Source: Paramacrobiotus metropolitanus | Lineage: Eukaryota > Tardigrada > Eutardigrada > Parachela > Macrobiotidae | Direction of reading: 5' to 3' | DNA length: 64,000 nt | Assembly: GCF_019649055.1 (NCBI RefSeq) | Contig: NW_026570276.1 | Coordinates: 434,001-498,000 of the forward strand | Shown here: one piece after another, positions 4,240-63,949 of the stretch | How positions within the stretch are numbered: position 1 is the stretch's first letter | Layout of the letters: each line of letters begins with the position of its first letter | The notes under the pieces: model-generated | Database searches by the model: none | Told to the model about the DNA's origin: nothing | The model's input: the letters and a program-made list of their open reading frames with translations, nothing else | Made by a program: the position numbers and the translations under genes

Positions 4240-5340
4240 GAAAATCAGGCTGCCGACCACTGCTTCCTCCTGATAACTGGAGCAAAGATACCGCTTGCAC
4301 ATAGACTTCACAATTCGCACGCTATTTCGATAGTCTTTTCCGACCATGAAGAAAATAATCTGAAACAGTCTGCAATCGTCAATTGCATAATAAGATTCAG
4401 TAGGCGAGGTTTGTTATGTAACAAAGCCCGTGCCCAGTTGTCAACTAGATCGCCCATATTATTCAATCAGTACGCAGTTCGCAGGATGTGCGCTGAAAGT
4501 ACGCATTGCCGTTGTCCGGAATGGAGTCCTTACCGGTGTCCCCGTGTAACCCAAGAAGTAGACGGTGTGACAGCATATGTTTTTGTTACTATAATGGAAA
4601 ATTTGCCGACAGTATATCGTGCGGCAGAAAGCACAACAGATACCACACCGAACTCACCAGAAGGGCATAAGCAGTCTGCAGGCGACTGTGGTATGCATGG
4701 ATGCACTGGGTAGCATTGTCCTTATTCGATTATTTCGCATGCAACGAAAATGCCTGATGAGAAAAATGGTATACTATAGCAAGGTGGCGGTTAAAGGAAA
4801 GTACCAACAGATCGCCATAACCGCTGTGAGTGTTGCCGACGTCATCTGATACTGGATTAAGCGTACATATCTGCCACAAAGCTATTCCTTCGTTGAGGGA
4901 AGGAAGAAGAATAGGAATACAACTGGCGACGCCGCGACGGGAATCAGCCAAGACAAGCGCCAACGATAACTACAACCGGTGTGCAGTTTTAATTTACGGA
5001 ATTGTAGCGTGGAAGGGATAGCGCGATGAGACGGTTAATGGCCAATAAAAAAAGGATGTCCATTGACTGAATGCGGTTAATATCAATCCAGTTTGTGCAA
5101 TAACGACGCTGCATTCGTAGTATGATAGACGAATCAGCAGAAAATCGTTGACAGTCAGCGGATCGACAGCGGATGTCATCAGTAAATCAGTGCAAAGCAA
5201 CTGAAGGATCAGTACTTGGGAGCCATTGCGGTAATGGTTTTAACAATGATTATAATCAGGCCGATTGTCAACACTGCCAACACGGACGGCGATACTTGTT
5301 ACTGCAAACTAGTATTCTGTATATGCGCTACCATAATCAT
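4240..5340 (-). pseudogene. Family A receptor pseudogene (duplication copy 1)
   Basis: A decayed two-exon family A receptor. The exon 2 relic starts at 4359 (IIFFMVGKDYRNS...) after a CAG acceptor. Exon 1 ends at 4534 at the family-typical ACACCG|GTAAGG donor, preceded by FLGYTGT-like sequence. Further 5' come ALWQICTLNPVSDD, TM3 (SQWTSFF) and TM2 (LLMTSAVDPL), and TM1 (VLTIGLII) near 5230-5330. These pieces lie in different frames with stop codons between them, so several frameshifts have built up. The same breaks occur in the second copy (9290-10390), so decay predates the duplication. Confidence 0.75.
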
Positions 5341-6764
5341 ATTTTAGCACGAAGGAAATATGTTTGAAGGCATTTGTATTCCTTCTAACGACGGTGGTGT
5401 TCGTGACGCTCATATGGGAATAATTCATGTGTTTTTAGAAATATGCTATCCGTATTGCTGCTGAACAGAACAGCAATCAGATCAAATCGCAATGCAGCCA
5501 TTCATTAGCCTACCTATTTATTAATATCGGAACTAAAATAGGAACCTTTAATACTCAGCAACTAACATCAACGAATTCTTTCGCTTGATTACGAATTCCG
5601 AGAACAATGAGCTAGCAAAACCTGTCATCAATGCGTCGCACCAGTGATTATGAGAACTCCGTGTGCCGGTGTCGGTGGGTAAACCATTGATTATTTTGTT
5701 ATCTAGAGAATTCCTCATAACCGCTGCATTGGCGCAATAGCTTTGGTCATGGACTCATGGGTAAGCAGGGATAATTGGCCGGTACCCTTACCAGATGGGA
5801 TCAGGCCTTCCTACTGTAGTTTTGCCAACCCATCTTTCAACAGCGACATCACTTTTGACGGTACCTTTTGCACCCAAGTTTACAACGATACTTGTCGTTA
5901 AGCACTTATTAAGCCAAAGTACGCACCTGTCTATGTTTGAATTATTGATAGCTACCGGGAAACGTTATCCTACAAGTGCGAAGTTGAGAACTTTAGATCC
6001 GCATGCGCGCTGCTAACCTGCAATAGCAAATTTGTGATGCCGAAATGCGACGGAGTTATTATTTATGACGCAGCTGCGTTTTCGCTCGTGCTAAGCACGC
6101 ATCCCATTGTCAAAAGAAACGACCAGTCTGGGAGAAATTACAGTTAATTAAATCCTGCACGACGTCGCAGTATTGCAAACCGGTAACCATACCACAGTGG
6201 TCTCAGCGGCTGGCACCAACGTGCGGATATCTTCATAACTTGGCGGGGGTTTCAGGTCAGCGCACATTATTGATTATTTGTTTTCAGTCTATCAGATCCA
6301 TTCGCCGTCCCGTAACAACTATTAACTCCATGGTTGCCTCAAGTGTTTTCATCCGCATCTTTGCCGGCCATGTTACACCAGTCCTTACTGATGACAGACG
6401 CCTTGCGGTCGCTGCACTAATAAAACTGTCGCACTTACTTGTTAGGCGCCACATGTAAATTATGTGCCAGCTGCAACGTTTACATGATGAAAAACGATGG
6501 CTGTATTTCAATATAACCGCTTCCACGGAATACTGTGAAATTATTCATCCCGCGACATCCGGCATCTGTTCTTGTAGAGCCCGTTAAAGCGCCCCATGTT
6601 ATACTTAGTACCTAGATGAAATCATCAGGAGCAACGGCTGAAACGTAAGCAGACTGCCATGTACCTCCGCACAATAGTATGTCATTAAAGTATGCTGCAA
6701 AATACACTGCTGCACAGTATGCTCAACATTATAACATAATCGTCTCTTATGAGCGATTATCGCG
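5341..6764. other. Intergenic, no gene seen
   Basis: No recognisable coding exon. The stretch holds the family A upstream-type block near 5577-5660 (TTGATTACGAATTCCGAGAAC, then TCGCACCAGTGATTATG) and probably the promoter of the family B receptor. It is repeated at about 10391-11813. Confidence 0.45.
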
Positions 6765-9289: not shown

Positions 9290-10390
9290 TGGGAAAATCA
9301 GGCTGCCGACCACTGCTTCCTCCTGATAACTGGAGCAAAGATACCGCTTGCACATAGACTTCACAATTCGCACGCTATTTCGATAGTCTTTTCCGACCAT
9401 GAAGAAAATAATCTGAAACAGTCTGCAATCGTCAATTGCATAATAAGATTCAGTAGGCGAGGTTTGTTATGTAACAAAGCCCGTGCCCAGTTGTCAACTA
9501 GATCGCCCATATTATTCAATCAGTACGCAGTTCGCAGGATGTGCGCTGAAAGTACGCATTGCCGTTGTCCGGAATGGAGTCCTTACCGGTGTCCCTGTAA
9601 CCCAAGAAGTAGACGGTGTGACAGCATATGTTTTGTTACTATAATGGAAAATTTGCCGACAGTATATCGTGCGGCAGAAAGCACAACAGATACCACACCG
9701 AACTCACCAGAAGGGCATAAGCAGTCTGCAGGCGACTGTGGTATGCATGGATGCACTGGGTAGCATTGTCCTTATTCGATTATTTCGCATGCAACGAAAA
9801 TGCCTGATGAGAAAAATGGTATACTATAGCAAGGTGGCGGTTAAAGGAAAGTACCAACAGATCGCCATAACCGCTGTGAGTGTTGCCGACGTCATCTGAT
9901 ACTGGATTAAGCGTACATATCTGCCACAAAGCTATTCCTTCGTTGAGGAAGGAAGAAGAATAGGAATACAACTGGCGACGCCGCGACGGGAATCAGCCAA
10001 GACAAGCGCCAACGATAACTACAACCGGTGTGCAGTTTTAATTTACGGAATTGTAGCGTGGAAGGATAGCGCGATGAGACGGTTAATGGCCAATAAAAAA
10101 GGATGTCCATTGACTGAATGCGGTTAATATCAATCCAGTTTGTGCAATAACGACGCTGCATTCGTAGTATGATAGACGAATCAGCAGAAAATCGTTGACA
10201 GTCAGCGGATCGACAGCGGATGTCATCAGTAAATCAGTGCAAAGCAACTGAAGGATCAGTACTTGGGAGCCATTGCGGTAATGGTTTTAACAATGATTAT
10301 AATCAGGCCGATTGTCAACACTGCCAACACGGACGGCGATACTTGTTACTGCAAACTAGTATTCTGTATATGCGCTACCATAATCATATT
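9290..10390 (-). pseudogene. Family A receptor pseudogene (duplication copy 2)
   Basis: Duplicate of the relic at 4240-5340, with the same arrangement: an exon 2 relic near 9410, the exon 1 donor near 9585 (ACCGGTAAGG on the minus strand), ALWQICTLNPVSDD, FFYWPLTV (TM3 region) and the TM1 piece. A few extra single-base differences from copy 1 (for example CCGTGTAACCC versus CCTGTAACCC) change frames locally. Not functional. Confidence 0.75.
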
Positions 10391-11813
10391 TTAGCACGAA
10401 GGAAATATGTTTGAAGGCATTTGTATTCCTTCTAACGACGGTGGTGTTCGTGACGCTCATATGGGAATAATTCATGTGTTTTTAGAAATATGCTATCCGT
10501 ATTGCTGCTGAACAGAACAGCAATCAGATCAAATCGCAATGCAGCCATTCATTAGCCTACCTATTTATTAATATCGGAACTAAAATAGAACCTTTAATAC
10601 TCAGCAACTAACATCAACGAATTCTTTCGCTTGATTACGAATTCCGAGAACAATGAGCTAGCAAAACCTGTCATCAATGCGTCGCACCAGTGATTATGAG
10701 AACTCCGTGTGCCGGTGTCGGTGGGTAAACCATTGATTATTTTGTTATCTAGAGAATTCCTCATAACCGCTGCATTGGCGCAATAGCTTTGGTCATGGAC
10801 TCATGGGTAAGCAGGGATAATTGGCCGGTACCCTTACCAGATGGGATCAGGCCTTCCTACTGTAGTTTTGCCAACCCATCTTTCAACAGCGACATCACTT
10901 TTGACGGTACCTTTTGCACCCAAGTTTACAACGATACTTGTCGTTAAGCACTTATTAAGCCAAAGTACGCACCTGTCTATGTTTGAATTATTGATAGCTA
11001 CCGGGAAACGTTATCCTACAAGTGCGAAGTTGAGAACTTTAGATCCGCATGCGCGCTGCTAACCTGCAATAGCAAATTTGTGATGCCGAAATGCGACGGA
11101 GTTATTATTTATGACGCAGCTGCGTTTTCGCTCGTGCTAAGCACGCATCCCATTGTCAAAGAAACGACCAGTCTGGGAGAAATTACAGTTAATTAAATCC
11201 TGCACGACGGCGCAGTATGGCAAACTGGTAACGATACCACAGTGGTCTCAGCGGCTGGCACCAACGTGCGGATATCTTCATAACTTGGCGGGGTTTCAGG
11301 TCAGCGCACATTATTGATTATTTGTTTTCAGTCTATCAGATCCATTCGCCCGTCCCGTAACAACTATTAACTCCATGGTTGCCTCAAGTGTTTTCATCCG
11401 CATCTTTGCCGGCCATGTTACACCAGTCCTTACTGATGACAGACGCCTTGCGGTCGCTGCACTAATAAAACTGTCGCACTTACTTGTTAGGCGCCACATG
11501 TAAATTATGTGCCAGCTGCAACGTTTACATGATGAAAAACGATGGCTGTATTTCAATATAACCGCTTCCACGGAATACTGTGAAATTATTCATCCCGCGA
11601 CATCCGGCATCTGTTCTTGTAGAGCCCGTTAAAGCGCCCCATGTTATACTTAGTACCTAGATGAAATCATCAGGAGCAACGGCTGAAACGTAAGCAGACT
11701 GCCATGTACCTCCGCACAATAGTATGTCATTAAAGTATGCTGCAAAATACACTGCTGCACAGTATGCTCAACATTATAACATAATCGTCTCTTATGAGCG
11801 ATTATCGCGATGA
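10391..11813. other. Duplicated intergenic stretch, no gene seen
   Basis: Copy of 5341-6764. No coding exon recognised; it probably includes the promoter of the family B receptor copy at 11814-13750. Confidence 0.45.
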
Positions 11814-14215: not shown

Positions 14216-16206
14216 TCAACACAACTTGGTGAAAAAACCTCGGAATGGACGAGAAAAAGACAGCTGATTTACGAACTACGCAATGCTGGCTACACACAGC
14301 CGCAAATCGCGGATCACGTAGGCATCGGTTTGAATGCATTGAAAAATTTTCTCTGGATGGCAACATTATCTCAACCACGAACGGCGCGGAGTGATGAGGA
14401 GAAAAAAGAGATTATACGGCTAGTACATCAAGGAAAGTGTAGTGTAGCAGAAATTGCGACGCAGTTCAACATGAGCTGGTCGAACGTGTATCAAATGGGG
14501 CGAATGGCTGGCGTTAAAGAAGACCAGAGTTTTCTCACACGGGATAAGATTTGTGTCAGTCAGAAGCGGAAAGCAGAGATACTTAAATGTTTCGACGAAG
14601 GTCATAGCGCACCGTACATCCAGGAAAAATTTAACCTATCTAGAGCTATTCTTACGCTGCTGTTGCGACAGAATGGGAAGAGCTTTGGTGGACGCTCCCT
14701 GCAAAATCGTCAGCGCAAACAAGCTTCTGCTCTGCAACTTTATGCACAGGGAGTGTCAATAAATGTCATAGTCAAACGGCTTAAAATAGCCCCGAGTACG
14801 ATGAGCCGTTTACTAAAAGATGTCGGCCATGAAGCAGTCACACTGGATGAGTGTTCGCAGAACACTGCGTGTCCCGAGCTAGAATTGGAAACAGATGACG
14901 CAGAACCGGCCTTTGAGACACCCCGGGGTAATGAGGACAGCGTTCACGACACGGAGACCACATGCCTGATGCAATGTGATAATCCAGACTCTAAGCACCA
15001 CCATTCCTGCTGTGCCGATTGTGATCATATTGCAACGCCTGACCACGACAAAAGAACCGCATCGATCGTTCATTGTACTGCCTGCAGCGTCAAATTCGGA
15101 ACAGTCGAGAATGTTTCAAAGGATAACTTACAAGTTCTTATTTACTCCCACGCAGGTACGTGGCACCACGTGCTTTATTGAACCGTTTTTAAATTAACGA
15201 GTAATTGCACAGTGAACTCGGTTGTTGTGCGTAAACGGTTGACCAGGTAAGGTAAGTTAAACTTTGAATGCACAACGTCTATTCGTGAAAGACCTGCTCA
15301 ACCGCCCGGTTATTCTAAGAAATGCATTAAAAGTAATTATTTTATGATAATACCAATAATAATATTATTGGTATTATCATAGTCTAAGGCTAATATTATT
15401 AGCCTTAGACTAAGCGGTAGAGGTAAACCTGTGACTAAATATTTCAACCCAAAAAGACGGAGAAGTTCAGTGCAGACTAGCTAAGCATGTACAGCCACCC
15501 GGTAATTATTTTGAAATACGCCAAATAAAAACGATAATGCGCTTGCACACCAGATTATCTTATGTATTTTGTACGGATGTCACCCAGATTTTCGCAAACG
15601 TAAGGTGCTAGTTTTGACTAGCAACCGTAATTGCGCAAATACCCTATTGTACTGACAATATATCCGTAAATGACGCCAATTGTGATGTTAATTTTATGTT
15701 ATAAACTTATAGGTATATAAACTGGCCTGCAAATCCAATTACTCGCAACAAAAAATTTGGGTTATTTAGGACCGGAATTTTATCAGAAAGCGGATATTCC
15801 AGCCGGCGTTGATAGAGATATAGCACCTGCACAATTTCCCCCCGGCCAGAGAACGCTGCTGGATGAGACCGCAGAATGTTTCCCTCTCTCGGCAGATCAA
15901 TTCGGGATGAGAACTGTTTCCGAAATAATACCGCTGCAGCCGGATAGTTTAACCACCATCGGCCTTAACGGAAGATATCAGTGCCAACTGTGTCGTTTCG
16001 CTTGCAATGAAGAGGAAGCATTCCTGTTGCATTTGGCTGATAAAAATCATGCAGAGCGTCGTGCCACCAGGACTTTCTTATGTTGTATGGGGTGTAAATT
16101 TAGAACCCGAAAAACGGCAACGATGGGCAGCCACATTATTAAGTACCAATCGTCGCAAAATACGCTGCAGAACCATAACGTGCATTCTGTTAAAACGACC
16201 CAGTGA
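14216..16206 (+). CDS. HTH-repeat/zinc-finger protein, paralogue A (damaged start)
   Basis: Predicted nuclear DNA-binding protein. Exon 1 runs from the open frame at 14216 (first ATG in that frame 14330) to 15155; exon 2 is 15770-16206. The junction CGCAG|GTACGT ... ATTTAG|GACC is phase 1. It encodes tandem helix-turn-helix units of about 45 aa (VAEIATQFNMSWSNVYQMGR; YIQEKFNLSRAILTLLLRQ; INVIVKRLKIAPSTMSRLL), then an acidic Cys/His-rich linker. Exon 2 has a C2H2-like finger (CQLCRFAC...HLADKNH) and a partial CxxC...H unit (CCMGCKFRTRK..GSH). Compared with paralogue B, the natural ATG (14245) is out of frame by two missing bases near 14259, so the first HTH unit (QLIYELRNAGYTQPQIADHVG) has no start codon. 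Translation could begin at 14330. The DNA target is unknown, and domestication from a transposase is possible. Confidence 0.65.
15344..15380. repeat. Perfect 37-nt palindrome
   Basis: ATGATAATACCAATAATA, then one central base, then its exact reverse complement: 18-bp arms with no mismatch. It lies in the intron of HTH-finger gene A and touches a second perfect palindrome. Confidence 0.95.
15380..15412. repeat. Perfect 33-nt palindrome
   Basis: TAGTCTAAGGCTAATA, one central base, then its exact reverse complement: 16-bp arms with no mismatch. It shares base 15380 with the preceding palindrome. Confidence 0.95.
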
Positions 16207-18980: not shown

Positions 18981-21023
18981 ATGGATGAGAAAAAAAAACA
19001 GTTGATTTTTAAACTACGCGATGCTGGCTACAACCAGAAGAAAATTGCAAAACGCGTGGGTATCGGTTTGAATGCATTGAGACGTTTCCTCCGGAGGGAA
19101 ACATTATTTCGACTACGAACGGCGCGGATTGATGAGGAGAAGCTAGAGATTTTACCGCTGTTACACCAACAAACGTGCAGTTTAACAAAAATTGCGAATC
19201 AATTCAGCATGAGCTTTAAGACATTGAATCAAATGCGACGAACAGCCGGCGTTCCTGACGAGCAAAAGAAAAGCATCCTTCCGCTGTTTTATCGCGGTGA
19301 CTCAAGGGCGGACATTATGCGCGAGGTTAAAATGGAAGGTGGCGCCGGCAACCCTGTATTAGTTCATTATGCTAATCAGAGTTTCACCACACGGGATAAG
19401 ATTCGTGTCAATCAGGAACAGAAAGCAGAAATACTCAAGTGCTTTGATGAAGGGCATAGTGAACTGCAAATCAGAGAACAATTTGACCTGTCTAAAGCCA
19501 CTCTTAAGATGTTGTTGCGACAGAATGGGAAGACCTTCGGCGAACGTTACCGGCAGAATTTCCAGAAGAGACGAGCTGCTGCTCTGCAACTTCGTGCCCA
19601 AGGAATGTCAATAAATGCCATAGCGAAACAGCTTAAGGTATCCGCAAGTACGATAAGCCGTCAAAAACAACCTATCGGCCACGAAACAGTCACACTGGAT
19701 AAATGTTCTCAGTACACTGCGTCGCTGGAGTTGAAAAAAGTTGATGCAGAACCGGCCTCCGAAGCACAACGACCTGATGAGCACGGCGGTCACGACACGG
19801 AGACCACGTGCGTGATGCAAAATGATATTCCAGACACTAAATGCCAGCACGGTGCTCGTTGTGATCAAACCGCCACGCCTAACCATGGCAAAAGAACCAC
19901 AGCGCTTAGCCGATTGTCCGCTTGCATTATCGACGTTGGAACAGTCGAGAAAGCTTCTAAGGATAACTCGGAAGTATCTGTACTTTGCTCGGAGAATACT
20001 CACACAAGTAAGCGAAAATTAATAGCGAGCTCCTCTTAAATTAGCGCGAATAAATTGCGCAATGTAATTATCTCTGTATCAGTTTTTGGGAGTTTGCGCA
20101 CGATTCCCCTAAGTCACTTCTAATACGCAACGTCAGTGCAGACCATTATATGTATGTAGCAGACCTTCGTATTCAAAACTGCCCGGTTTTCCTAAAAAAC
20201 GCATTAGAAATGATATTGAAAGTAACGTTATAAGAATTAATATTGTTTCTGTATAAATATTGTTTCTGTATAAATATTGTTTCTGTACAGAGAGTGTGCA
20301 CATTTTTATTTTCATTATTAATTTGTTTATTATTTATGCCGTTGAACAGCGCTAAACAAGAGAATTACTGCACTAAAGCGTCACACATTCTTATTTTATA
20401 CGATGTCACTTAGATTCGCAAAATCCTGATCTGCTACCTATACGTTTTGACTAGGTACACTAATAGCGTATCGTTCGGACAGAGTTTACCTGTACAAACA
20501 ACACAGAATTATGAAGATAATTTTATGTTTAAAATGAACTGGCTTACAAATCCAACTACATAATCCTTAATTGTCGAATAATTTAGCGCTGGAATATTAT
20601 GCTAAAACGGATACTTCTTACGCCGGCGTCGATAGGAATATTGCACCTGCACATTTTCCCTCCGGCCAAATAAAACAGCAGAAAGGGATTACAGAAAGTT
20701 CCCGTGTTATTTCAACAGACCATTGCATTGTGGAAACTACTCCCAAAGTATCGTTTCTACAGCCAGTCAGTGTAACCTTGACCTGCCGCAACGAAAAATA
20801 CCAATGCCAAACGTGCCACTTTACTTGCGACGAAGAGGAAGCATTCCTGTTGCATCTGGCCGGCAAAGAACATTCACAGCTTTCTGCTACTGGCACTTTC
20901 TTACACTGTACGGGATGTAAATTCAGAACGCGAAAACCGGCGACAATGGGCCAACACATTATTAAGTACCAATCGTGGCAAAATGCGCTGCAGTACCATA
21001 ATCTGCATTCTGTTAAAATTTAA
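18981..21023 (+). CDS. HTH-repeat/zinc-finger protein, paralogue B (intact)
   Basis: Exons 18981-20007 and 20587-21023 join in phase 1 (CACAA|GTAAGC ... AATTTAG|CGCT), giving about 487 aa. The N-terminus carries about five tandem helix-turn-helix units: KLRDAGYNQKKIAKRVGIG; LHQQTCSLTKIANQFSMSF; a degenerate unit near FYRGDSRADIMREVK, missing from paralogue A; FDEGHSELQIREQFDLSK; and LRAQGMSINAIAKQLKVSAS. These look like homeodomain-like or transposase-type HTH. A polar linker follows. Exon 2 gives a finger C-x2-C-x12-H-x5-H (CQTCHFTC...HLAGKEH) and a second CxxC unit (CTGCKFRTRK...GQH) with no second close His. Most likely a nuclear DNA-binding protein. The ATG at 18981 aligns with the dead ATG of paralogue A. 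I do not recognise a named family. Confidence 0.75.
20239..20289. repeat. 17-bp tandem repeat, three units
   Basis: AATATTGTTTCTGTATA three times in a row, the last with two-base changes. It lies inside the intron of HTH-finger gene B and is not present in the intron of paralogue A. Confidence 0.85.
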
Positions 21024-27533: not shown

Positions 27534-29137
27534 TGTGCAGTTAGAATGGCACGATACACGATATTTAGATTCCGTAGCGAATCTAGCGTTGTAACTAAAA
27601 CGCTATCAGAATTCGAACACCAGACTTGTCAGAGACAAAAACAAAATTCTCGACGTGCAGATCGAGAAGTGAACAAGTGCGAAATGAGAACTCGAGAGAC
27701 TAACCAGTGAGCGAGCAAATGAAAACTCGTGATGGCAAGCGAGCCAGCAGTGTGAACAGTGCGCGGAAAGCGGCTAAACAGAGACAACACACAAAGCGGC
27801 CGGCGCCGGTCCACATCAAAGCGCGCGAATGGTCCGGCTCGGCCGATGCGGCGTGCAGAAGAAGGGAAGCGCCGTCGACGTAACATTAACTTGAATTAAC
27901 ATTGTTAATTAGCTGTTACAGTGTTACTTACTGTCTTTCGACACCGGCCCCCAAACCTTTCCAGGTATACTGCTTTGTATTTTCTAGAACAAGGTATCAT
28001 ATTTCCTCAACGGTTGGATCAGCTGGTTTATATATTATGTAGTACGTACCTCAGTCATCAGTCTACCAATGTTGTTATGACACTGTTGCCTGTATTAGCA
28101 CTAATCGATACGAAACGGGAACCTCCCTGTTTCCCTGTTAACAGTCTGTTTCGCAGTTTTCGTTTTAACGCTAATCTGTCAACCATACTGTGCCTGGGTG
28201 GCAGCCTTTGTGTATAACCCGATCAGCTGTTACCGTGAGCATACTGAAACCGAGAATACCGGTAATGTTGGATCTGCGTTAGCAAACAATTGCCTGTACA
28301 GAAAATCCATTTAAACGGGCTATTTTGTTACGGTTCTGTTTGTTTGTCCTCGAAACTAACACGATTTCGAGCCATCCCTGCTTATCACGTCGGTCAGAGT
28401 AAGCGAACTGCATACCGGCAACGTTGAATTTAGTGCACTTTGTTTCTACGCGATCCAGTTTAAACCAATAAACAATTAGCACATTTTTTAATTTCGTGAT
28501 GCTAAAAGACTGAGCCATGTACGCGGCATTGAGGAGCCTTTTTGGGAAGGTTGAATACAACGATGAGGCTTTCGCGACGGTAAAGACGAAGCAAACTTTA
28601 AACTTGCAATACCGAAAGGTAAAAGGGCCGGCAAAAGGTCATGTATATGATATTGCCTTACTTTTTTCCTTTGTGGGCTTTTTTGATCGTATGTTTTGCG
28701 TATTTGTGAGCCTGTTATCCCAAGTCGATAATTTTGGTAGAATAAAACCAGGAAATCTGCAAATAAATCCTGAGCCAGGATTTACTGTATTTCCTGTTCA
28801 GCTTTTGAGCTTCTATCGGAGACATACCTTAGAAATTATTAAATTCTAGCGTCATGCTCCCCGCCTGCAATCAAGTAGAATAATTTGCATGCTTGACTAG
28901 CTAATAACAACGTGCACACTGCAACGTTGACTAGGTAAAAGTCGGTAAATATTATGAACGGATGCTTCCTACAGCGATATAATTTTCCTGCCTTCGGTTC
29001 AGTCAACAGAGCTTGTTACCGAACCGATCTCGCATCTACACGACATTGTGAAAAATAGGTATACTGGGTTTTCATCGCTCTCATTTGTGGGTTTACAAGA
29101 AATTTTGCTTATAAAACGCTATTCCAATACTATAAAT
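27534..29137. other. 5' side of DIRS-like element and spacer
   Basis: The first ~350 bases are probably the untranslated leader of the DIRS-like element. After that no gene is recognised. A 28517-28640 stretch (MYAALRSLFGKVEYNDEAF...) looks somewhat protein-like, but has no supported splice partner. Confidence 0.4.
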
Positions 29138-30489
29138 ATGTTACAGTATACAAATCTCTCATACCCGAAAATCCGTAACCGGACTACATATCTTCGTAGT
29201 CATCGAAATGACTCCGGGCACTGGCTTTCCTACGACCACGACGCGTACATCCGCTCATTACTTCTCTGGTTTCTGGTGACGATTATCGCTAGTATTATTG
29301 GAACGTGTCTGACTCTCGTGCTGATCGTCAGCATTATCAAGAAAGGTCACTACCGTACCGGCTGTCATGTACTCATTTTGCAGCTAATCTGTGTGGAGTT
29401 CGTCATGACTGCTGTTGTTGACCCTCTCATTGCCCTACACGACATTAATATCAGCGTCTTTTATCTGTCGTATTACGGGTGTAATGTGGTTGACCAAATA
29501 AGCTTAATCTTTCTGGGAGTGGGACAATGGACGTCGCTCCTTTTAGCCATCAACAGAGCTATCGCCTTGTCCTACCCGCGGTACTATGCTCGACACTGCA
29601 ATCGCACACCGGTCGTCAGTGCCACGTTTGTAATATCATGGTTAACTCCTGTCTTAACCTGTGTTCCTACATTATTGCCGGTTAAAATCGGTTTGAGCAG
29701 TATTACGTGGCGAACCTGTACGAGGACATTTGGGTGCTGTGAACATACCCAGCACGATTAGGCTGCGATGAACAGCTGGTTAGCCGTAGCTCGCAACGCT
29801 ACTGATAACACAGTCTGAATGCAAACAGCTATAAATTTAGCCGGCTGTTCATCGCAGCCTAATCGTGCAGGGTATGTTCACAGCACCCAAATGTCCTCGT
29901 ATTGTTGCGCCGAGATTTTCCTCCGGTTTGCCAACCATCAAAGCGATTATGACGATTTGTTTATATTTTCCCTTAGCGGCCAATCTGACGCTGTATGCGG
30001 CTTTGCTGTTGCGGCATTTCCGTCGAATGCGAAGTGTTAGCGTTAGCAGTGCGCTGCCGGTTGTATCCCTGCGCTACCGCCGTCGACTGCAGATTGCGTA
30101 CACATTGTTCTTGGCATCCGTGTGGTACTGTCTATGCTTTCTGCCACATGGCACTTTGGGGTCAGTCATTCCCATGTTTTATGAACGACATCTGCCTGCA
30201 TTTGTTTGGATACGAACGGTATATTTTTTGGGCTATACGGGTACACCGGTAAGACATTGATTTTGGTCATGTTAACGAAGAATCTAAAAAGTTTTGCACA
30301 GTATCGCCAACTGTCAAATAATCGTATCCCGTATTCAAGATAATGTCAGAAGAATTATATTTTTAGGTGATTTTCTTTCTGGTTGCCAATCAGTATAAAG
30401 ATGGTTTACAAGAACTTTGGAATCCCTTCAAATTGCGCGTTGTTACCGCAGTGGATAACTTCAGGAAAAGATTTATGCGGAAATGTTAA
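29138..30489 (+). pseudogene. Family A seven-TM receptor interrupted by a MITE
   Basis: Exon 1 is 29138-30248 and exon 2 is 30367-30489, with donor ACACCG|GTAAGA and acceptor TTTTTAG|GTG. A 179-bp insert (29721-29899) with its TA duplication adds 181 bases between codons for WRTC and IVAPRFSSG, shifting frame and adding stops. Leaving those 181 bases out of the count gives 310 codons, phase 0, then 40 codons plus stop, exactly the family structure. Motifs: KKGHYRTGCHVL; TM2 AVVDPLIAL, keeping the Asp that other copies have changed to Asn; TM3 GQWTSLLLAINRAIALSYPRYY; TM6 WYCLCFLPHG; TM7 FLGYTGTP|VIFFLVANQYKDG. I prefer the ATG at 29138, aligned with the start of the gene at 40496. Confidence 0.85.
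29721..29899. mobile_element. 179-bp MITE with 56-bp inverted repeats and TA duplication
   Basis: Terminal inverted repeats 29721-29776 and 29844-29899 begin CGAGGACATTTGGGTGCTGT and match over 56 bases with a single mismatch, around a 67-bp spacer. TA flanks both ends (29719-29720 and 29900-29901). There is no coding capacity. A TA target duplication with long inverted repeats is the signature of a Tc1/mariner-mobilised miniature element. The near-perfect arms argue for recent insertion, or possibly for a recent foldback event. Confidence 0.9.
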
Positions 30490-31192: not shown

Positions 31193-32430
31193 TCAAAGGG
31201 GGAATTTTAGTAAAATTCCAAAGTCCCGCACATTGTTTCGATAATCGTTTGCGACTATGAAAAAAATCACCTAAAACAGTGACAAATTAATAAGAATTAT
31301 GGACATTCCATAAAGAGTTTATGGAAAATACGTCAAAGCGCATGCATGCGTCAAAGCGTAAATGGAAAAAAGAGCATCGCCGATTTTTTACCCTCACATT
31401 ATTCAGCTAATTACGGTCAACCATCAAGCGAGATTACGCTGTTAGTGCGTAAATGCGAGTGAAGTATGTATATGCGCAATAATTGCGTTTCTGTACAGAG
31501 AATCCTTACCGGCGTGCCCACGTAGCCCAGGAAGTAAACAGTGCGTATCCACTCATATGACCGCATATACGTAAACTCGATAAAACGACGGAAAATTCAC
31601 CGATAAAATACTGTGCGGCAGAAAGCATAGCAGATACCACAGTGAACCCGCTAGCAGCGTCTAACTCATGCGGAGACGGCGGCGATAGCGCAAGGATACT
31701 GTTGCCAGCGAAGTCATGGTACGGAATACGGATGCGTTGCATGTGACGGAAATGAATGTCGAACGAGTACAGATAAAACGGTTTAAGTCAACAAAGTGGC
31801 GGTTAAAGAAAAATACAGGCAAATCGCCATGACCACTTTTGGAAGGTTATCTACAGAACTTGATACCGCAGAATTCGTACATATCTGCCACAAAGCCATT
31901 TGATGGTTGACGGAAGGAACAAGAACATGAATACAACTCCTGATAGAAATCAACCAGGAAAACCCGCGGCTGATTATCACTACCGGCGTACGATTTAAGT
32001 TTACCGCATAGGAACGTGGAAATGACAGTGCAATTAGACGACTAACGGTCAAAAAAGGAAGTCCACTGGCTCACCGCAGCCAATACCAATCCGATTTTTT
32101 CAACTACGACGGTGCAGTGGTAGTGGGTTAGCGAAACGAGTGAGAAGTCTATTTACTGATGACCGACTCGATTCTACAGGTTTTTATGAGTTCGACGCAC
32201 AGGAGCTGCAGAATGCGTATCTGACAGCCGGCGCGATAATGACCTTTCTAAGTATAGTCAGAAAGCTCGTCAACACTGTGCCAATAATGATGGCGAAACT
32301 TGACACGGCGAACCCTGGAGTCAGGGAACGAAGATATGCATTGCGGTCAAAATGTAATACTATGGACAAGTGTTTAGCAGTATATCTATTCTCTTTAACA
32401 CGATAGCGTTGGTAATATTCATGTACGGTG
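31193..32430 (-). pseudogene. Family A receptor pseudogene
   Basis: The exon 2 relic is 31270-31193 (VIFFIVANDYRNN..., then an early stop) after a TTTTAG acceptor. Exon 1 ends at 31510 with the family donor CCG|GTAAGG. Recognisable pieces of exon 1: TM4 with NLNRTPVVI and GFSWLIS; ALWQICTN; TM5 VVMAICLYFSLTATLL; TM3 TVSRLIALSFPRSYAV; TM1 IIIGTVLTSFLTILRK; N-terminus LHFDRNAYLRSL. They are in different frames, with stops near 31783 and 32184. The gene is clearly decayed. Confidence 0.75.
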
Positions 32431-38954: not shown

Positions 38955-40496
38955 TTAACATTTGCAAAATCCCACCGATTTCCTTTTTCTTAAATTGTCG
39001 ATTATGGTAATTAAGCAATCTTTGACCGGGTTCCAGAGTTCGCGTGCGCCGTCCCTGTACTGATTAGCAACCACGAAGAAAATCACCTAAAAGCAATGAA
39101 AAATTTTTATTTTTCTTTTAAAATTTAACTATTGGTCACCCTGACACTGACGTCAACTACGGCTCCGATCTGGGTTTTTCATCAATACATCCCAGATTAT
39201 GTTCACATTCACATCCCAGATTGGGTCCCGTTATTCTGTATAAAGTATAACTGCAGTCTGCACATAGAAACGACTCGATTTGATCTGGCAGTATCATCCA
39301 AAACTGTCAGAAAAGTGTACGGAATACTAATTATGTAGACTAAATTTTTACTCTCTTGTAACCGAACAAAGCTCTTGGTGACAAAAAAGGTCAGCCTTAA
39401 ATGTTGCCCACCCGAATATTTTTGCTTTTGTTGGAGTCGTCCATGTGCAAATTGCCTCGCTACAGAATGCCACACAGCTGGTCTGGGAACGCGCGAAAGC
39501 GAAAATTCTCGTGTACGTGCGTAATCTACATGCATACCTTCCTTAATACTGCTTACGTTAGTCTCTTACCGGAGTCCCAATATAACCAAAAAAGTACAGC
39601 ATTCGTATCCATATAAACACCGACAGATGCTGTTCATAGAACATGGTAACAATCGATCCGAGAGTGCCGTGCGGCAGAAAGCACAGGCAGTACCACACTG
39701 TTGCCAACAACAACGTATACGCAACCTGCAGTCGGCGATGGTAGCGCTGGGATACTGCGGGTGGTACGATGGCTACGCTAACACTTCGTTTCCGACGGAA
39801 ACGTCGAAGGAATAATACGGTATACAACATTAAAGTGGCCGCTAAAGGAAAATACAGACATATCGCTATAACCGTTTTAATGACTGGCAGAGCGGAAGAA
39901 AATCTCCGCGCAGCACTACAGATCCGCCAGGCACCGTTTATATCACCATTTTTGCCCGGCAGTAATGTTGGAATGCAGGTTAATACGGGAACACACCAGG
40001 ATAGAACAAAAATGGCAGTTACAACCGGTGCGCGATTGAAATGCCGGGTATAGTATTGCGGAAATGACAAAGCGACAAGGCGATTGACGGCCAGAAGGAG
40101 CGGCGTCCACTGTCCTACTCCGAGAAATACAAAGCTAATGCGGTCGACAGTATTACACCCGTAAAACGATAACCGAAGGATGCTAACTTCCTGTAGCGCA
40201 ATTAGCGGATTAATAACAGCCGTCATGATGAGCTCAATGCAGATTAGCTGAAAAATTAGTATATGACAGCCGGTACGGTAGTGGCGTTTCTTGATAATGA
40301 TGACAACCAGCACGATGGTCAGACACGCTCCGACAACACAAGCGATAATATTCAGCACAAACCAGGGCATCAATGAGCGCGTGTGGGCGTTGTTGTCATA
40401 GTAGAACTGGTGTCCGGTACCGTTTCGATGGTTACGGAGATATGTAGTTCGGTTACGGAGGTTCCCGTGGGAAAAGTTTCTAATAAACTGCATCAT
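38955..40496 (-). CDS. Family A seven-TM receptor, intact
   Basis: Two exons, 40496-39570 (309 codons) and 39086-38955 (43 codons plus stop), 352 aa, phase 0 (CTCCG|GTAAGA ... CTTTTAG|GTG). Closest in the window to the MITE-interrupted gene at 29138: both start with a NRTTYLR-H-RN N-terminus. Motifs: KKRHYRTGCHILIFQL (ICL1), AVINPLIAL (TM2, Asn for Asp), GQWTPLLLAVNRLVALSFPQYY (TM3, NR for DR), WYCLCFLPHGTLG (TM6) and FFGYIGTP|VIFFVVANQYRDGARELW (TM7 and helix 8). A plasma-membrane receptor of unknown ligand. It converges with lipocalin-like gene 2, the two stop codons being about 210 bp apart. Confidence 0.87.
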
Positions 40497-43104: not shown

Positions 43105-44166
43105 TTGCTTGTTCTTCTGATATATGACATTAAACGCTGTGTTGAGCCTTTAACATGCCGTCGGCAAAAAACTCCTATGGAGTTTCACCATCTCAACATC
43201 CAGGGGCTGCCCTATGATAATTATCATAAGCTTGATTTACTGTCAAATTATCTTTGCATTGATGACAATGTTTCGAAGTTTTTCGCTGTCACTGAAACTC
43301 ATCTCCGTCCTTCGGATTCTGATCAGTTGTTTTCCATTCCCGGATACTGTTTATTTCGTAGCGATCGACCTGATATTCATGGTAAAACACGCGGTGGTGG
43401 GATTCTATGCTACGTACCTCAACATATAACGGCTGAGCGTGTCGAGCTGAAGTTTCGTTCTAAGGGATTTGAATGTCTGTGGTTACAACTCACTGTTTCT
43501 CATCGCAAAATTATTATTGGGACCGTGTATCGTCAGCCTGATTCGAATTCTGTCGAAACCAAAGCGTTGTTCAATCATTTGCGGGAGGTACTGTTAAAAT
43601 ATCCGGGCAGCGATCATATGATCATGGGGGATCTGAACATCGATTCCTCCCCTGGTTCCTCAAGCCCCTATGTCAAATTGTACAGTGACTTTGTAGATGA
43701 ATTTTCCTTCGAAGATAAGGTAATCGGACACACTCGGGTAGCACATCGCCTGAGACAATCTGATAATACCTTAATCACTACATCCACTAAGATTGACGTA
43801 ATATTGTGCAGTCCTAAGAATTCATACGTGTCGTGCCAACCGTCAGATGTAAGTTGTTCAGATCATATGCTGTGCAAAACGGTCTCCGCTTTTCAGTGCG
43901 CACAACCGGAGCACAGAGTGATTTATTTTCGTGATTGGAAAACGACTAATTTTCAGTCTTTCAAAAGTCAAGTTTTTGATTTTACAAAGAATTACGTTAA
44001 TTACGTTGATTATCCGGACGTCGATGATGAAGTTTCAAAATTTGTTGGTGGTTTAGCTAAAATAATTAACAGGTGCTATCCGTTACGATCGAAAAGAGCC
44101 TCGAATAGCAGTGCACCTTGGATTAACGGTCGCATTAATGCATTAAACGACCAACGGTCGCATTAA
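43105..44166 (+). pseudogene. LINE endonuclease domain, split from RT by frameshift
   Basis: A 353-aa frame of the exonuclease-endonuclease-phosphatase fold. Motifs: LNIQGL, VTETHL (metal-binding Glu), GGGILCYV, IIIGTVYRQPDSN, MGDLNIDSS, TKIDVILCSP and CSDHMLC (catalytic Asp-His). This enzyme nicks target DNA to prime reverse transcription. The frame ends where a 14-mer direct repeat puts a TAA in frame. The true N-terminus may begin near MEFHHLNIQGL. Confidence 0.82.
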
Positions 44167-44209
44167 ACGTCTGATAAAAAATAAAAATCTCGCATACAAG
44201 CGGAAGAAG

Positions 44210-46030
44210 TTGTCGAAAAGTGCCTCTAAGTATCAAGGCAATTGTCAACAATTTAAGAACTTGAAGCGAGAATTATTTACGGAGATTAAGAACGCTAAGC
44301 GAATGTATTTCGAACAAAATGTACAAAATTCAAAAATAATGTGGCGCGAAATTAACCGTTTGCGAGGAAAGAACAACGAAAATGATAATCTGGACTTCGA
44401 TTTAAATAATTTAAACAAACATTTCGCTACAATGGGGGAGCACGGTAAACGGCACCCCGTGGCTGTCATCCCGAAGGAGGCTGATAGGGCGACATTTGAA
44501 TTTGATCATGTTACTCCAGACGTGGTTGCTGAAATGTTTGGGAAAATCTTAAGTAAGAGAAAATGTGCGGGACCGAATGGTATACCACATAAACTCTTGC
44601 TGGAAATTTCCCCTATACTGGTTGAGCCCATAACCCATCTGATAAACCAGTGTTTCAAAAAAAATGTCTTCCCGTCAATTTTCAAAATGGCGGAAGTAAT
44701 CGCTTTACCAAAAACTGTTCATCCAACAACACCGGATGAATTTCGTCCTATTTCACTTTTGTGTAATTTGTCAAAATTGTTTGAGAAATGCGCCCAACTG
44801 CAGCTGAACAAATTTTTGAAAAAAGAAGGCATTCTTGCGCCTAACCAATCCGGTTTCTGTAACGGCCATTCATATGAAACGTTATTGTTAAAAGTGACGG
44901 AGACATGGAAAAAGGCTGTCGATAGCAAAAAGTGTGTTGCAGTTGTTTTTCTTGATTTGAAAAGAGCTTTTTCGTCAGTGTGCCATTTGACTCTGTTGGA
45001 GACACTCCGTGATATAGGAGTAAAGTCTTCAGCGTTAAAATGGTTTTATTCGTATCTGACCGGCCGCTCGCAACGTGTACGTCATGGCATGGCAGGCGTT
45101 CCGCAAGGGTCTATACTTGGTCCCATTTTATTTACAATATACATTAATGCCCTACTGAAACTGCGGCTACCAAACGTGCATTTAGAAAGCTTTGCTGACG
45201 ACACCATCTGCTATGCTGTTGCTAACACGAAAGCGGACGCAGCAAAAGATCTAACTGAAGCACTACCGGCAGTCTGTGAGTGGCTTAATTCCAACCGGTT
45301 GTTCGTCAACGAGAAAAAATCGAATCTGTTACTAATAAGTTCAGCGCATAATCGCGAAACCAACGTAAGCGTAATGCTGAACGGTCATAAATTACTTCCA
45401 GAAAAGTCAGTGAAACATCTTGGAGTGATACTGGATGAACATCTCAGTTGGGCTGACCATGTTAAAAAGGTCCAAAAGAATGTTCGGTACGGTATATCAC
45501 TGTTAAATCGTGTTAAAGTCGGCCTGCCAACATCCCAACGCATTGTGCTTTTCTATGCCTTTGTTCAGTCGCATCTGAACTACTGCTCTACAGTGTGGAG
45601 CGGGGCATCTGTGCGCTTGCGTGATAAATTGGCCGCGATGCATCGTAACGGTGTCCGAGCGGCTGCAAACTACGCAAAGATACCCACGGAATCGTTCATG
45701 AACCAACATGGGATCTTACCGCTCTTCACGAGATGGAAACAAAGGGAAGCGATATGGTTATACAAGATCAAACATCCGGAAAAATTCCATGTGCCGCAGT
45801 ACATCTCTGAGATGGTGGAATTTGATGACCGTATCAAGCCGTACAACCTTCGGAATAGAAACCGCATCCTGATCAAGGCGGAAGCGAAGAAGAAAGTTGG
45901 CGAGACGACCTTTGCTTGGAAACTTAATAAATTGTGGACATTTTTTGTTGATTCTAATTTTTCTGATCTGTTCGATATTCGTACAATTGGTGCCTTTAAG
46001 CAAGCTTTGAACCGTGTCAATTCTGTTTAA
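44210..46030 (+). pseudogene. LINE reverse transcriptase domain
   Basis: 606 aa. RT motifs: KRKCAGPNGIPHKLL, FRPISLLCNLSKLFEKC, NQSGFCNGHSYETLLL, VVFLDLKRAFSSV (motif A; the usual AFD is AFS), AGVPQGSILGPILFTIYIN and SFADDTIC (catalytic FADD). Thumb and C-terminal region follow. The frame is open from just after the frameshift to the stop, so damage to this copy is slight. Expression would need a start inside this frame or repair of the upstream shift. Confidence 0.85.
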
Positions 46031-60342: not shown

Positions 60343-61895
60343 AATGTCCGACAAGAGCGGTAAATCAACGCAACCGCTAACTAAGAAAGCAGATAAGTCA
60401 GTTGCAACTGCAGCAGCAGATAAGCCTGTCGCAAGTTCAATAACTGTAGCTTCAAGTTCGAAAGCTGCTACACAGACTTTTCCGTATACAGAAGCAGACA
60501 TATTAAAAAAAGCCGGAGGACGGACGTTGCGTTCAGACGGTCAAGCAGAGTTTGCAGAAGGCGAATTGCCAAAACCGAAAAGGTCAGGCGTGCCCAGGGC
60601 GAAATCAAATCTGATGAAGAATTAATATCAGATGACGATGAGCCTGTTACCGCATTAAGCTCAACACAGTCGGCTGTTATACTTGAAAGTGACGCTTCGC
60701 CACTCGTTGAGACAGGTACACAGTCACCTTTCTTGACCGATATACCAGAACGTACTGCAACGGTTCTCGTTGACATTAATAATACTGAAAGTGTCAATAT
60801 GGATGCACAAGTTAAAGCACTTACTGATGGCCTACAGAGTCTTGTAAAGGTCGCAACAGACGCTCCAGTAAGTGGTCCGCTGCAGTGCGATAAATTCAAG
60901 CCTTCAGAGCATAACGCTCGTGAATGGATGAAGGAGTTTGAAGAAGCAGCGACCATGTCGAATTGGCTGGACAAAACCAAAATGAACGGTTTGCGTTCTA
61001 CTTGACGGCTGGTGCCGCTAAGCAGTGGTATAACCTCAGAAAGCCGTTTGCGACTTGGGACGCTTTGCGTACTGCATTTCTCACAGAATTTGTCAGTGAG
61101 GATGAGAAGTGGGACTATCAGAACAAGTTGCAAAATCGCAAATTCAATCAGGATAAAGAGAGACTGGTTGAATATTACTACTCTATCATTGACCTTTGTC
61201 ATAAAGTCGATACTGCGATGTCAAACGAAATGAAAGTGCGCTACCTGTTGAACGGTCTTAGTACAAGCCTACGTAATCATATGGCGGTGCTTAATCCGAC
61301 AACACCGGAAGAGTTATTGACACGTTTCAAGGTGTTAAAAGTTGATTCGGAACGTACAAGTTCTAACACAAATGTCATTTTGACAGCTGAAGTCTCGGCA
61401 AAGCAGAAGCAAAGTGAAGACGACGAAACTGCTGCCGGTGATGTCAGTTCAGCAAACGTGTCAAACGTGCTGCAGTCCAGTGAATTTCAACAGGCTGTGG
61501 ACAGAGCTATCTCTGCCCGTTTGCAGCAAGAGTTCCAGATGGCTGCCGGCTCATCGACACCTCCCGAGACTCAGTCAGCCGCGCCTGTGTTGACGCAAAC
61601 GTTTGTACGGGGAGGCGCTGCTGGTGCCCGTGGAGGCCGTGGTCGCGGTGGCCGAGGTCGTGCTCGTGGACGTGGCCGTGGTGGTACACGCAACGGCGGC
61701 AATGGCGAATCCCGCAAACCGGCTGTGACGGTTGAACGGAACCAAGACGACAAGTCGCGGTGTGATTTCTGCGGTCGGCAAGGTCACCAAGAAAGCCGGT
61801 GTTGGGATCGCATGCGGGAACGTAAAGCGGCACACGCGAAGCATGGAAATGCTCTGCCGTCGGAAGGTGAGGGAAATTTAAACTCCAGAGAGTAG
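60343..61895 (+). pseudogene. Gypsy gag, frame-broken
   Basis: Three frames follow one another: 60343-60625 (MSDKSGKSTQPLTKK..., ending in a stop), 60733-61005, and 60963-61895. The last carries the capsid-type segment (AKQWYNLRKPFATWDALRTAF...), a Gly-Arg-rich stretch (GGRGRGGRGRARGRG) and a CCHC knuckle (CDFCGRQGHQESRC). At least two frame changes separate what was one coding sequence. Structural protein and RNA binding in the parent family. Confidence 0.75.
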
Positions 61896-63949
61896 CTAAG
61901 TACAGGGGTTTAGCTGCTCATACGTCTGATCCCCCTGATTTTGCTGGTTTTCCTTTCGATGCATTTCCGATAGAAGAACCAAATGACGATTCAACTGTTC
62001 CGGCTCCAGTTTGCACTACGGCATATGTTAATGGTATGGCCGTGCCTGCTGTGATTGACACCGGCTCCGCTGTAACGATTATGAGTGTGCACTGTGCACA
62101 GATGTTAGATCTGTGTATTCAGTCATATACCGGGCGGCCCGTTAAAGGTGTTAGTGGCAAATTGATATCGCCTGTCGGCACTATTTGTGTTGATGTGTTA
62201 TTGGCAAACTGTTCGCACCAAATTAACGTACTTGTGCTAGACACGTACGATCGTGAATTATTGGTCGGTAATGATTTTCTGATGCGAACGGATCTAGTAA
62301 TTGATTATGCCGGTCGTACTATACGGCGCTTTGATGAACGTGATGGCGAACAGTTCAGGCCATGGAAAGCGCGGAATCTTGTTGCAAGTCGCAAAGTGCA
62401 CATTCCCGCTGGTCACGTAGCTTGGGTGAAATGTCAACTAAACCGTAATCTATTTCCTGGCCGTGTGAAACCAGAAAATATGGAGTTTATAGTTTCCCCA
62501 AACGCTAACACGTTCGCTCAAAAAGGGTTACGTACATCAAACGCGCTAGTCAAAATTGTCAACAATGTGTGTTATTTGGCGTGTGCAAATTTCTCTCGCA
62601 TGACCCAAACAATCGGTAAGGGTCAGAATATTGCGTCTGCGACACCAATGTATGTTGACCGCGTTCCAGAGTGCTCGGTGGTTGAAACGTGTGAACTCCC
62701 AGAACTTCAGTGTGGTGCAAATTTAACTGCCGATCAAACTGAACAGTTGCACGCTGTGTTGCGCAAACACGTAAGCGTGTTTCCCACTGCTGAACGCCCT
62801 ATTGGCGAAGTAAAAGGAGTTTCGCATGTTATAGACACAGGCAGTGCATTGCCAGTGTCCCAACCTCCTTACCGGCGATCGTGGGCCGAGCGTATTGTCA
62901 TTCGTACAGAAGTTGATAAAATGCTCCGCCAAGGCATTGTGACCCCATCCTGTAGCCCGTGGTCGTCTCCCATTGTACTCGTACACAAGCGAGACGGCAC
63001 AACGAGGTTTTGTGTTGATTATCGCCGGGTCAATGCTGTTACCAAGAAGGACGTGTACCCAATGCCCCGCTTGGACGACGCGCTTGATCAGTTAGGTGGG
63101 TGCGCTTATTTTACTTCCTTAGATATGGCGTGGGGATACTGGTAGATCCCCGTAGCGGAGTCCAGCAAGGACCGTACCGCTTTTGTGACGCCTGACGGCT
63201 TATATGAATTCAGCCGTATGCCCTTCGGCTTGTGTAACGCCGGGGCGACCTTTCAAAGGTCAATGGACAAAATACTGAATGAATTCAGATGGCAGTTTGT
63301 TATAGTGTACATAGATGATGTACTCATCTATTCGAAGACGTTTGAAGAGCACATGGAGCACCTTGATGCCGTACTGCGCAAGCTTCGCCACGCAGGTATT
63401 GTGCTTAAACCATCAAAATGTGTTTTCGCGTCCGATTGCACCAAATACCTTGGTCATGTCGTTGACCGTAATGGTATTAGTCCCGATCCCGATAAACTGT
63501 TGGCAATCGCAGATTATCCAGTACCAGAAAATGTCACGGACATAAAGTCGTTCTTAGGACTTTGTTCGTATTTTCGTCGGTTTGTACGGGATTTTGCCGG
63601 TCTATCGGAACCGCTGGTACGGTTAACGAGAAAAACCGAACCGTTTGTGTGGTCTTCCGAACAGATGGTTGCTTTCGAAAAACTCAAACACGCACTAATT
63701 AGTTCGCCGATTTTAGCTCATTATGATCCAAATGCTGAGATCGAGCTACACTGCGATGCTAGCGGCCTTGGAATAGGCGCATGTTTAGTATCTAAACTGG
63801 GTGACTGCGAACGGGTGTTGGCGTACGTTAGCAAAGTTTCAGTCCCGCAGAACGTAATTATGCGGTCACTGAACAAGAGTGTCTGGCAATTGTTTGGTCG
63901 GTTAAAAAGTTACGACCTTATTTGTATGGTAAGATGTTTCGCATTGTGA
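61896..63949 (+). pseudogene. Gypsy pol (protease, RT, RNase H start), interrupted
   Basis: Aspartic protease active site AVIDTGSAVTIMS near 62050; RT start SPWSSPIVLVHKRDG, FCVDYRRVNAVTKKD, FTSLDMAWGYW. An in-frame TAG at 63143-63145 interrupts the RT; the same frame continues with the PFGLCNAGATFQ and YIDDVLIYS motifs to the RNase H region (IELHCDASGLGIGACL). A frame change near 63840-63870 follows. The fragment runs off the window. Confidence 0.85.

Follow-up and report, generated by a model that had tools for sequence, protein, structure and literature searches.

The pogo superfamily belongs to IS630-Tc1-mariner and is described as comprising elements of 1.2-5.2 kb (PMC7386202). Most Fot and Fot-like elements are described there with arms of a 40-60 bp type. 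The catalytic spacing is DD35D in almost all Fot/Fot-like and Passer elements and DD29-36D in Tigger, and HTH_psq is given there for Fot/Fot-like elements only (PMC7386202).

We analyzed a 64,000-nt stretch of tardigrade DNA (C56:434001-498000, hereafter the window), in which a 179-bp element lies within a receptor gene, and searched the genome assembly it comes from (169.8 Mb, 533 contigs). Like described MITEs, the element is short and non-coding, with inverted ends, a TA duplication, high copy number and near-uniform length, and nothing notable sets it apart from them. Among the papers listed in our searches of the tardigrade literature, nothing on this family was seen. Because elements of ~2.5 kb with like ends encode an HTH_psq and DDE_1 transposase, the available sequences support a pogo-like placement of the family rather than one in Tc1 or mariner proper. 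Shared with the pogo superfamily, as far as the description goes, are the TA duplication, the combination of HTH_psq with DDE_1 and a ~2.5-kb length that falls within 1.2-5.2 kb (PMC7386202). The 59-bp perfect arms of one of these elements (L009) fall in the 40-60 bp type, as in most Fot/Fot-like elements (PMC7386202). The second and third catalytic D, picked by eye, are separated by 38 residues, a spacing within the ranges listed for Lemi and pogoR and outside those for Fot/Fot-like, Passer and Tigger (PMC7386202). With the catalytic residues chosen in this way, spacing and HTH_psq point to different named families within pogo. Unlike in the pogo elements described there (PMC7386202), the coding region of those found here is divided among four or more frames that appear to be exons.

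The interrupted receptor and its insert

The 5' part of the receptor's first exon runs on the forward strand from the start codon to the insertion site, left TA included (29138-29720), and was recognized by its ATG, open frame, 7tm_1 match and similarity to a paralogue. The 3' part (29902-30248), placed by paralogue similarity and donor context, is open, ends in phase 0 and is followed by GTAAGA. A predicted intron (30249-30366, donor GTAAGA, acceptor TTTTTAG) separates it from exon 2 (30367-30489), an open frame of 40 codons plus stop; the region 30361-30470 is 72% identical at the DNA level to the paralogue region. The 5' frame (29048-29719) matched 7tm_1 above cut-off (E 1.7e-7, 31.4 bits against 30.5), identifying the interrupted gene as a rhodopsin-like 7TM receptor. 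The 3' frame alone (29865-30260) had no Pfam match at E 0.01.

The closest paralogue found, in tandem with the receptor, is encoded on the minus strand of the window (39570-40496), where 7tm_1 (46.7 bits, cut-off 30.5), protein and DNA similarity and frame delimit an uninterrupted first exon. Protein identity between the two genes is 65%. The receptor's 5' part is 62% identical to paralogue residues 3-195, and its 3' part is 69% identical to residues 195-311, with no stops. The paralogue exon has 927 nt (309 codons, phase 0), lacks an insert and, like that of the receptor, ends before GTAAGA. Apart from the insert, the two genes share the same layout, and an earlier sequence-only reading had likened the exon without the insert to that of the paralogue at 40496.

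That reading had described a TA-flanked 179-bp element with 56-bp arms and one mismatch, and this geometry was recovered exactly. The MITE, delimited by sibling copies, arms and end pattern, occupies 29721-29899 between a left (29719-29720) and a right (29900-29901) TA target-site duplication. Its left terminal inverted repeat (29721-29776, plus strand) pairs over 56 bp with the right one (29844-29899, minus strand), the single mismatch lying at arm position 31 (29751). The window copy has A at this position; of the 41 other aligned copies, 40 carry T and one carries C. If a few mismatches are tolerated, pairing reaches 74 nt, flank included.

Insertion added 179+2 = 181 bases (1 mod 3), which had been proposed to account for the frame loss. 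Once they are removed, the first exon, bounded by the ATG at 29138 and the donor that follows 30248, is indeed restored to 930 nt and reads through 310 stop-free codons in phase 0, with an open exon 2 after it. Both exons being open without the MITE, the gene is otherwise intact, as had also been claimed; no other disabling change was seen in either. With the insert in place, the first in-frame stop falls inside the MITE (29759-29761, plus strand), closing the ORF 29048-29761, and the receptor frame now ends before TM5-TM7. A truncated receptor of this kind would be non-functional.

We consider it very probable that the rhodopsin-like receptor gene was intact until this 179-bp pogo-like MITE entered its first exon at a TA, by a cut-and-paste route driven in trans. 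Movement was presumably brought about by a transposase of the HTH_psq/DDE_1 kind. Such an enzyme, supplied by the ~2.5-kb elements, would bind the terminal repeats of the MITE and join its ends to a staggered cut at the TA in exon 1, and repair of the joined product would then leave the TA duplicated.

Sibling copies across the genome

A genome-wide DNA search with the MITE gave 203 first-look candidates, the best 40 of which were scored. All 40 were full length (97-100%), so the copy count is a lower bound. Adding three copies from the end-pattern list gave a set of 43 that were read; the 183-bp unit recurred at 42 places besides the window, at 95-98% identity. TA was present at both ends in 43/43 copies, and the length with TAs was 183 bp in 42 and 184 bp in one. 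A 26-base end pattern allowing ≤3 mismatches occurred at 302 places genome-wide (149 + 153), whereas its reversed control occurred at none (0 + 0). These numbers bear out the earlier identification of the element as a MITE. An absence of further copies had been named as one outcome that would speak against it, and copies are clearly abundant.

From 100 exact end matches listed, at least 38 facing end pairs within 3.5 kb were obtained. Their lengths, TAs included, were 183 bp in 24 pairs, 164 bp in four and 741 bp in two, with single pairs of 173, 184, 581, 597, 1,015, 1,531, 2,533 and 2,535 bp. Two elements of 737 bp, L013 and L014, carry 70-bp arms that are more similar to those of the MITE, and neither has a frame of ≥90 aa.

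The 42 copies of equal length (all but the 184-bp copy) differ from the majority base by 0.91% on average and from one another by 1.8%, with a pairwise maximum of 6.0%; these values are biased low, since the copies were selected by similarity. Five copies equal the majority sequence. No pair among the 43 shared flanks at 24/40 bases on either side, so they represent separate insertions. Two pairs of variants, 95+149 in L048 and L052 and 70+114 in L045 and L055, recur in copies whose sites are unrelated, which suggests that mutated copies may have transposed in turn. Among 86 flanks, the base adjoining TA was G in 51% (21% in the sequence around the sites) and T in 7% (29% around the sites).

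The window copy carries three differences (positions 33, 90 and 109 of 183), each a base absent from the other 41 aligned copies. These private bases, together with the perfect TA duplication and the frame-exact empty site, argue against the insertion being an assembly artefact, an explanation that would fit the single haplotype found in the assembly and that we regard as extremely unlikely. The insertion may be polymorphic, as the earlier reading had suggested; no empty allele was found among the best 40 of 185 first-look candidates, mostly MITE copies, and the host gene's next-best match in those 40 was the paralogue, at 74-75%.

Two further arrangements were observed among the sibling copies. 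One copy (L056, G000:C5:1862215-1862397) is a hairpin-centre insertion, sitting at the exact centre of another perfect palindrome with 90-bp arms and TA in its middle. Two others (L043 and L057, G000:C1:4253736 and 4255798) share their orientation, are separated by 2 kb and have different flanks. Both have T at position 113, seen in no other aligned copy, and their arrangement resembles what might be left after a local hop.

Transposase-bearing relatives

Four full-length elements of ~2.5 kb were found whose ends equal those of the MITE or nearly so, each with TA flanks as judged by eye. Two of them (L009, 2,529 bp, and L010, 2,531 bp) match the MITE over the first 30 bp of their ends and at about 93-95% over arms of 54-60 bp. 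The other two (L025 and L026) have two bases in their tips that depart from the MITE sequence; they are 99.8% identical to each other and 88% identical to L009. The coding region comprises at least four successive frames, taken to be exons; the first (from L009) matched HTH_psq (E 6e-10, 39.1 bits, cut-off 20.4) and the third (from L025) matched DDE_1 (E 1.6e-9, 38.0 bits, cut-off 22). The second exon reached 14.7 bits for DDE_1, below the cut-off of 22, and the fourth had no Pfam match.

All four exon frames are open in L025 and L026. Neither L009, whose frame breaks within the third coding exon, nor L010, with a stop in its fourth, is intact. Given that the elements with exact tips are broken and the open ones differ at two tip bases, the likeliest mobilizer would be an element like L025 or L026, acting on ends that differ slightly from its own, or else a lost or unsampled source. 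The sequence-only reading had suggested looking for a Tc1/mariner element with matching ends. Transposase-bearing elements with such ends do exist; their HTH_psq and DDE_1 domains make them pogo-like, and the pair with exact tips is broken.

An exact-ended open mobilizer was sought at 12 further loci, drawn from the 39 related transposase matches listed. Eleven of these were set aside as having paired inverted arms of their own (beginning TACGAGGA.. in eight and TACTTCG.. in three), with no MITE-like tip at ≤6 mismatches in 21. At the remaining locus (L078), which was rejected as well, the transposase is truncated and one end is MITE-like. The 11 loci (L067-L077) form a varied pogo-like set of 2.3-2.8 kb. 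Their arms are 60-79 bp long, 87-100% identical and 2.3-2.8 kb apart, with TA adjoining as judged by eye, and start with CGAGGA or CTTCG beside the TA. Arm tips differ between groups, and ends and transposase seem to diverge together in this set.

Splicing, age and the fate of the receptor

Introners mostly fit DNA transposition (PMC9860276), and the MITE resembles them as a short non-autonomous element with inverted ends in a coding exon. If it were likewise spliced from the transcript, the receptor would have gained an intron and would not have been knocked out, a reading we judge very improbable. Four GT-AG removals do leave exon 1 open; the best donor, GTACGA, is built partly by the duplicated TA, and 15 extra nt remain. 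Dinucleotide-shuffled inserts (n=400), however, offered at least one frame-keeping removal in 85% of cases, with a mean of 5.4 against the 4 seen here, and 65.5% had a donor scoring at least as well. With shuffled inserts giving as many frame-saving pairs, we rejected the introner reading. The locus differs from the introners described in that splicing of the MITE finds no support, the sequence test performing no better than chance (PMC9860276).

Positions of the MITE copies were also compared with those of long frames. Spanning frames of ≥150, 180 and 350 aa were found at 5, 4 and 2 of the 43 sites, compared with 36.4%, 28.5% and 4.1% of window positions (n=1,143), a rough yardstick that draws on the open frames of one ORF-rich window and lets short exons escape. 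By this measure, MITE copies are not enriched in long frames (4/43 at ≥180 aa), which may tell against splicing. We consider it highly unlikely that the MITE could be spliced in either orientation with a 15-nt frame-neutral scar. For this, insertion at G-TA would create the GTACGA donor from target and terminal repeat, and the opposite repeat would provide what we take, by eye, to be a branch-point-like CTAAT and a CACAG acceptor. Were it true, the receptor would be a new intron-bearing gene and not a pseudogene.

The four sites in frames of ≥180 aa are the receptor itself, L034, L028 and L033. The L034 copy (G000:C54:701599-701781) interrupts a 386-aa frame from a family that is multi-copy and unnamed in Pfam, for which 99 matches were listed, its own two included. 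The frame at L028 is probably the first part of another receptor; its Srx match is weak and below cut-off, and a possible donor follows closely downstream. The L033 frame has what we take to be a resemblance to SAMHD1, with no SAMHD1 Pfam match; in this case the MITE seems to sit in an intron.

Returning to insertion into an intact receptor gene, we next considered its age. Synonymous divergence between receptor and paralogue is 0.79 (NG86) or 0.60 (YN00), with dN/dS of 0.27 and 0.39, respectively. Against a dS of 0.6-0.8, the three changes in 183 bases place the insertion much later than the receptor duplication, an estimate from a small count with wide error that takes the majority base as ancestral. 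The insertion thus appears to be recent, and the earlier suggestion of relative recency holds.

The receptor could alternatively have been dispensable or decaying already, the MITE arriving as a neutral passenger. Several receptor-like matches on C56 contain stops (141742-142296, 433900-434694, 438574-439425, 443594-444472 and 465504-466250), so receptor loss would be routine there. Nevertheless, the lack of a further lesion in exons 1 and 2 and of any nonsynonymous excess on the receptor branch counts against prior decay, though not against dispensability, and we find this explanation unlikely. In polarized single-change codons, synonymous/nonsynonymous counts were 21/17 on the receptor branch and 19/24 on the paralogue branch with outgroup Q, and 25/17 and 19/25 with outgroup R; polarization is rough, because synonymous sites are saturated to both outgroups (dS above 1.3). 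In these counts the receptor branch has no nonsynonymous excess over the paralogue branch and no sign of relaxed selection before the insertion. In window coordinates, stop-bearing receptor-like matches near the broken receptor lie at 1-694, 4574-5425, 9594-10472 and 31504-32250.

The receptor is a case of ordinary pseudogenization by a MITE family of well-known kind, and it leaves the understanding of MITEs or receptors unchanged. It is a very clean one, combining a recent MITE expansion, related transposase genes in the same genome and a receptor in which the insertion is the sole visible lesion. The disruption illustrates one route of gene loss from receptor repertoires, and the insertion would be usable as a marker for presence/absence polymorphism and in tests of present-day transposition.

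Other features were seen in the window. Two long frames (14330-15181 and 18981-20039) have many helix-turn-helix family matches at several places, as though they consisted of HTH units in repetition. Frames for a LINE-like endonuclease and reverse transcriptase occupy 43105-46030, and a Ty3-like element is represented by its gag and protease frames at 60963-63145.
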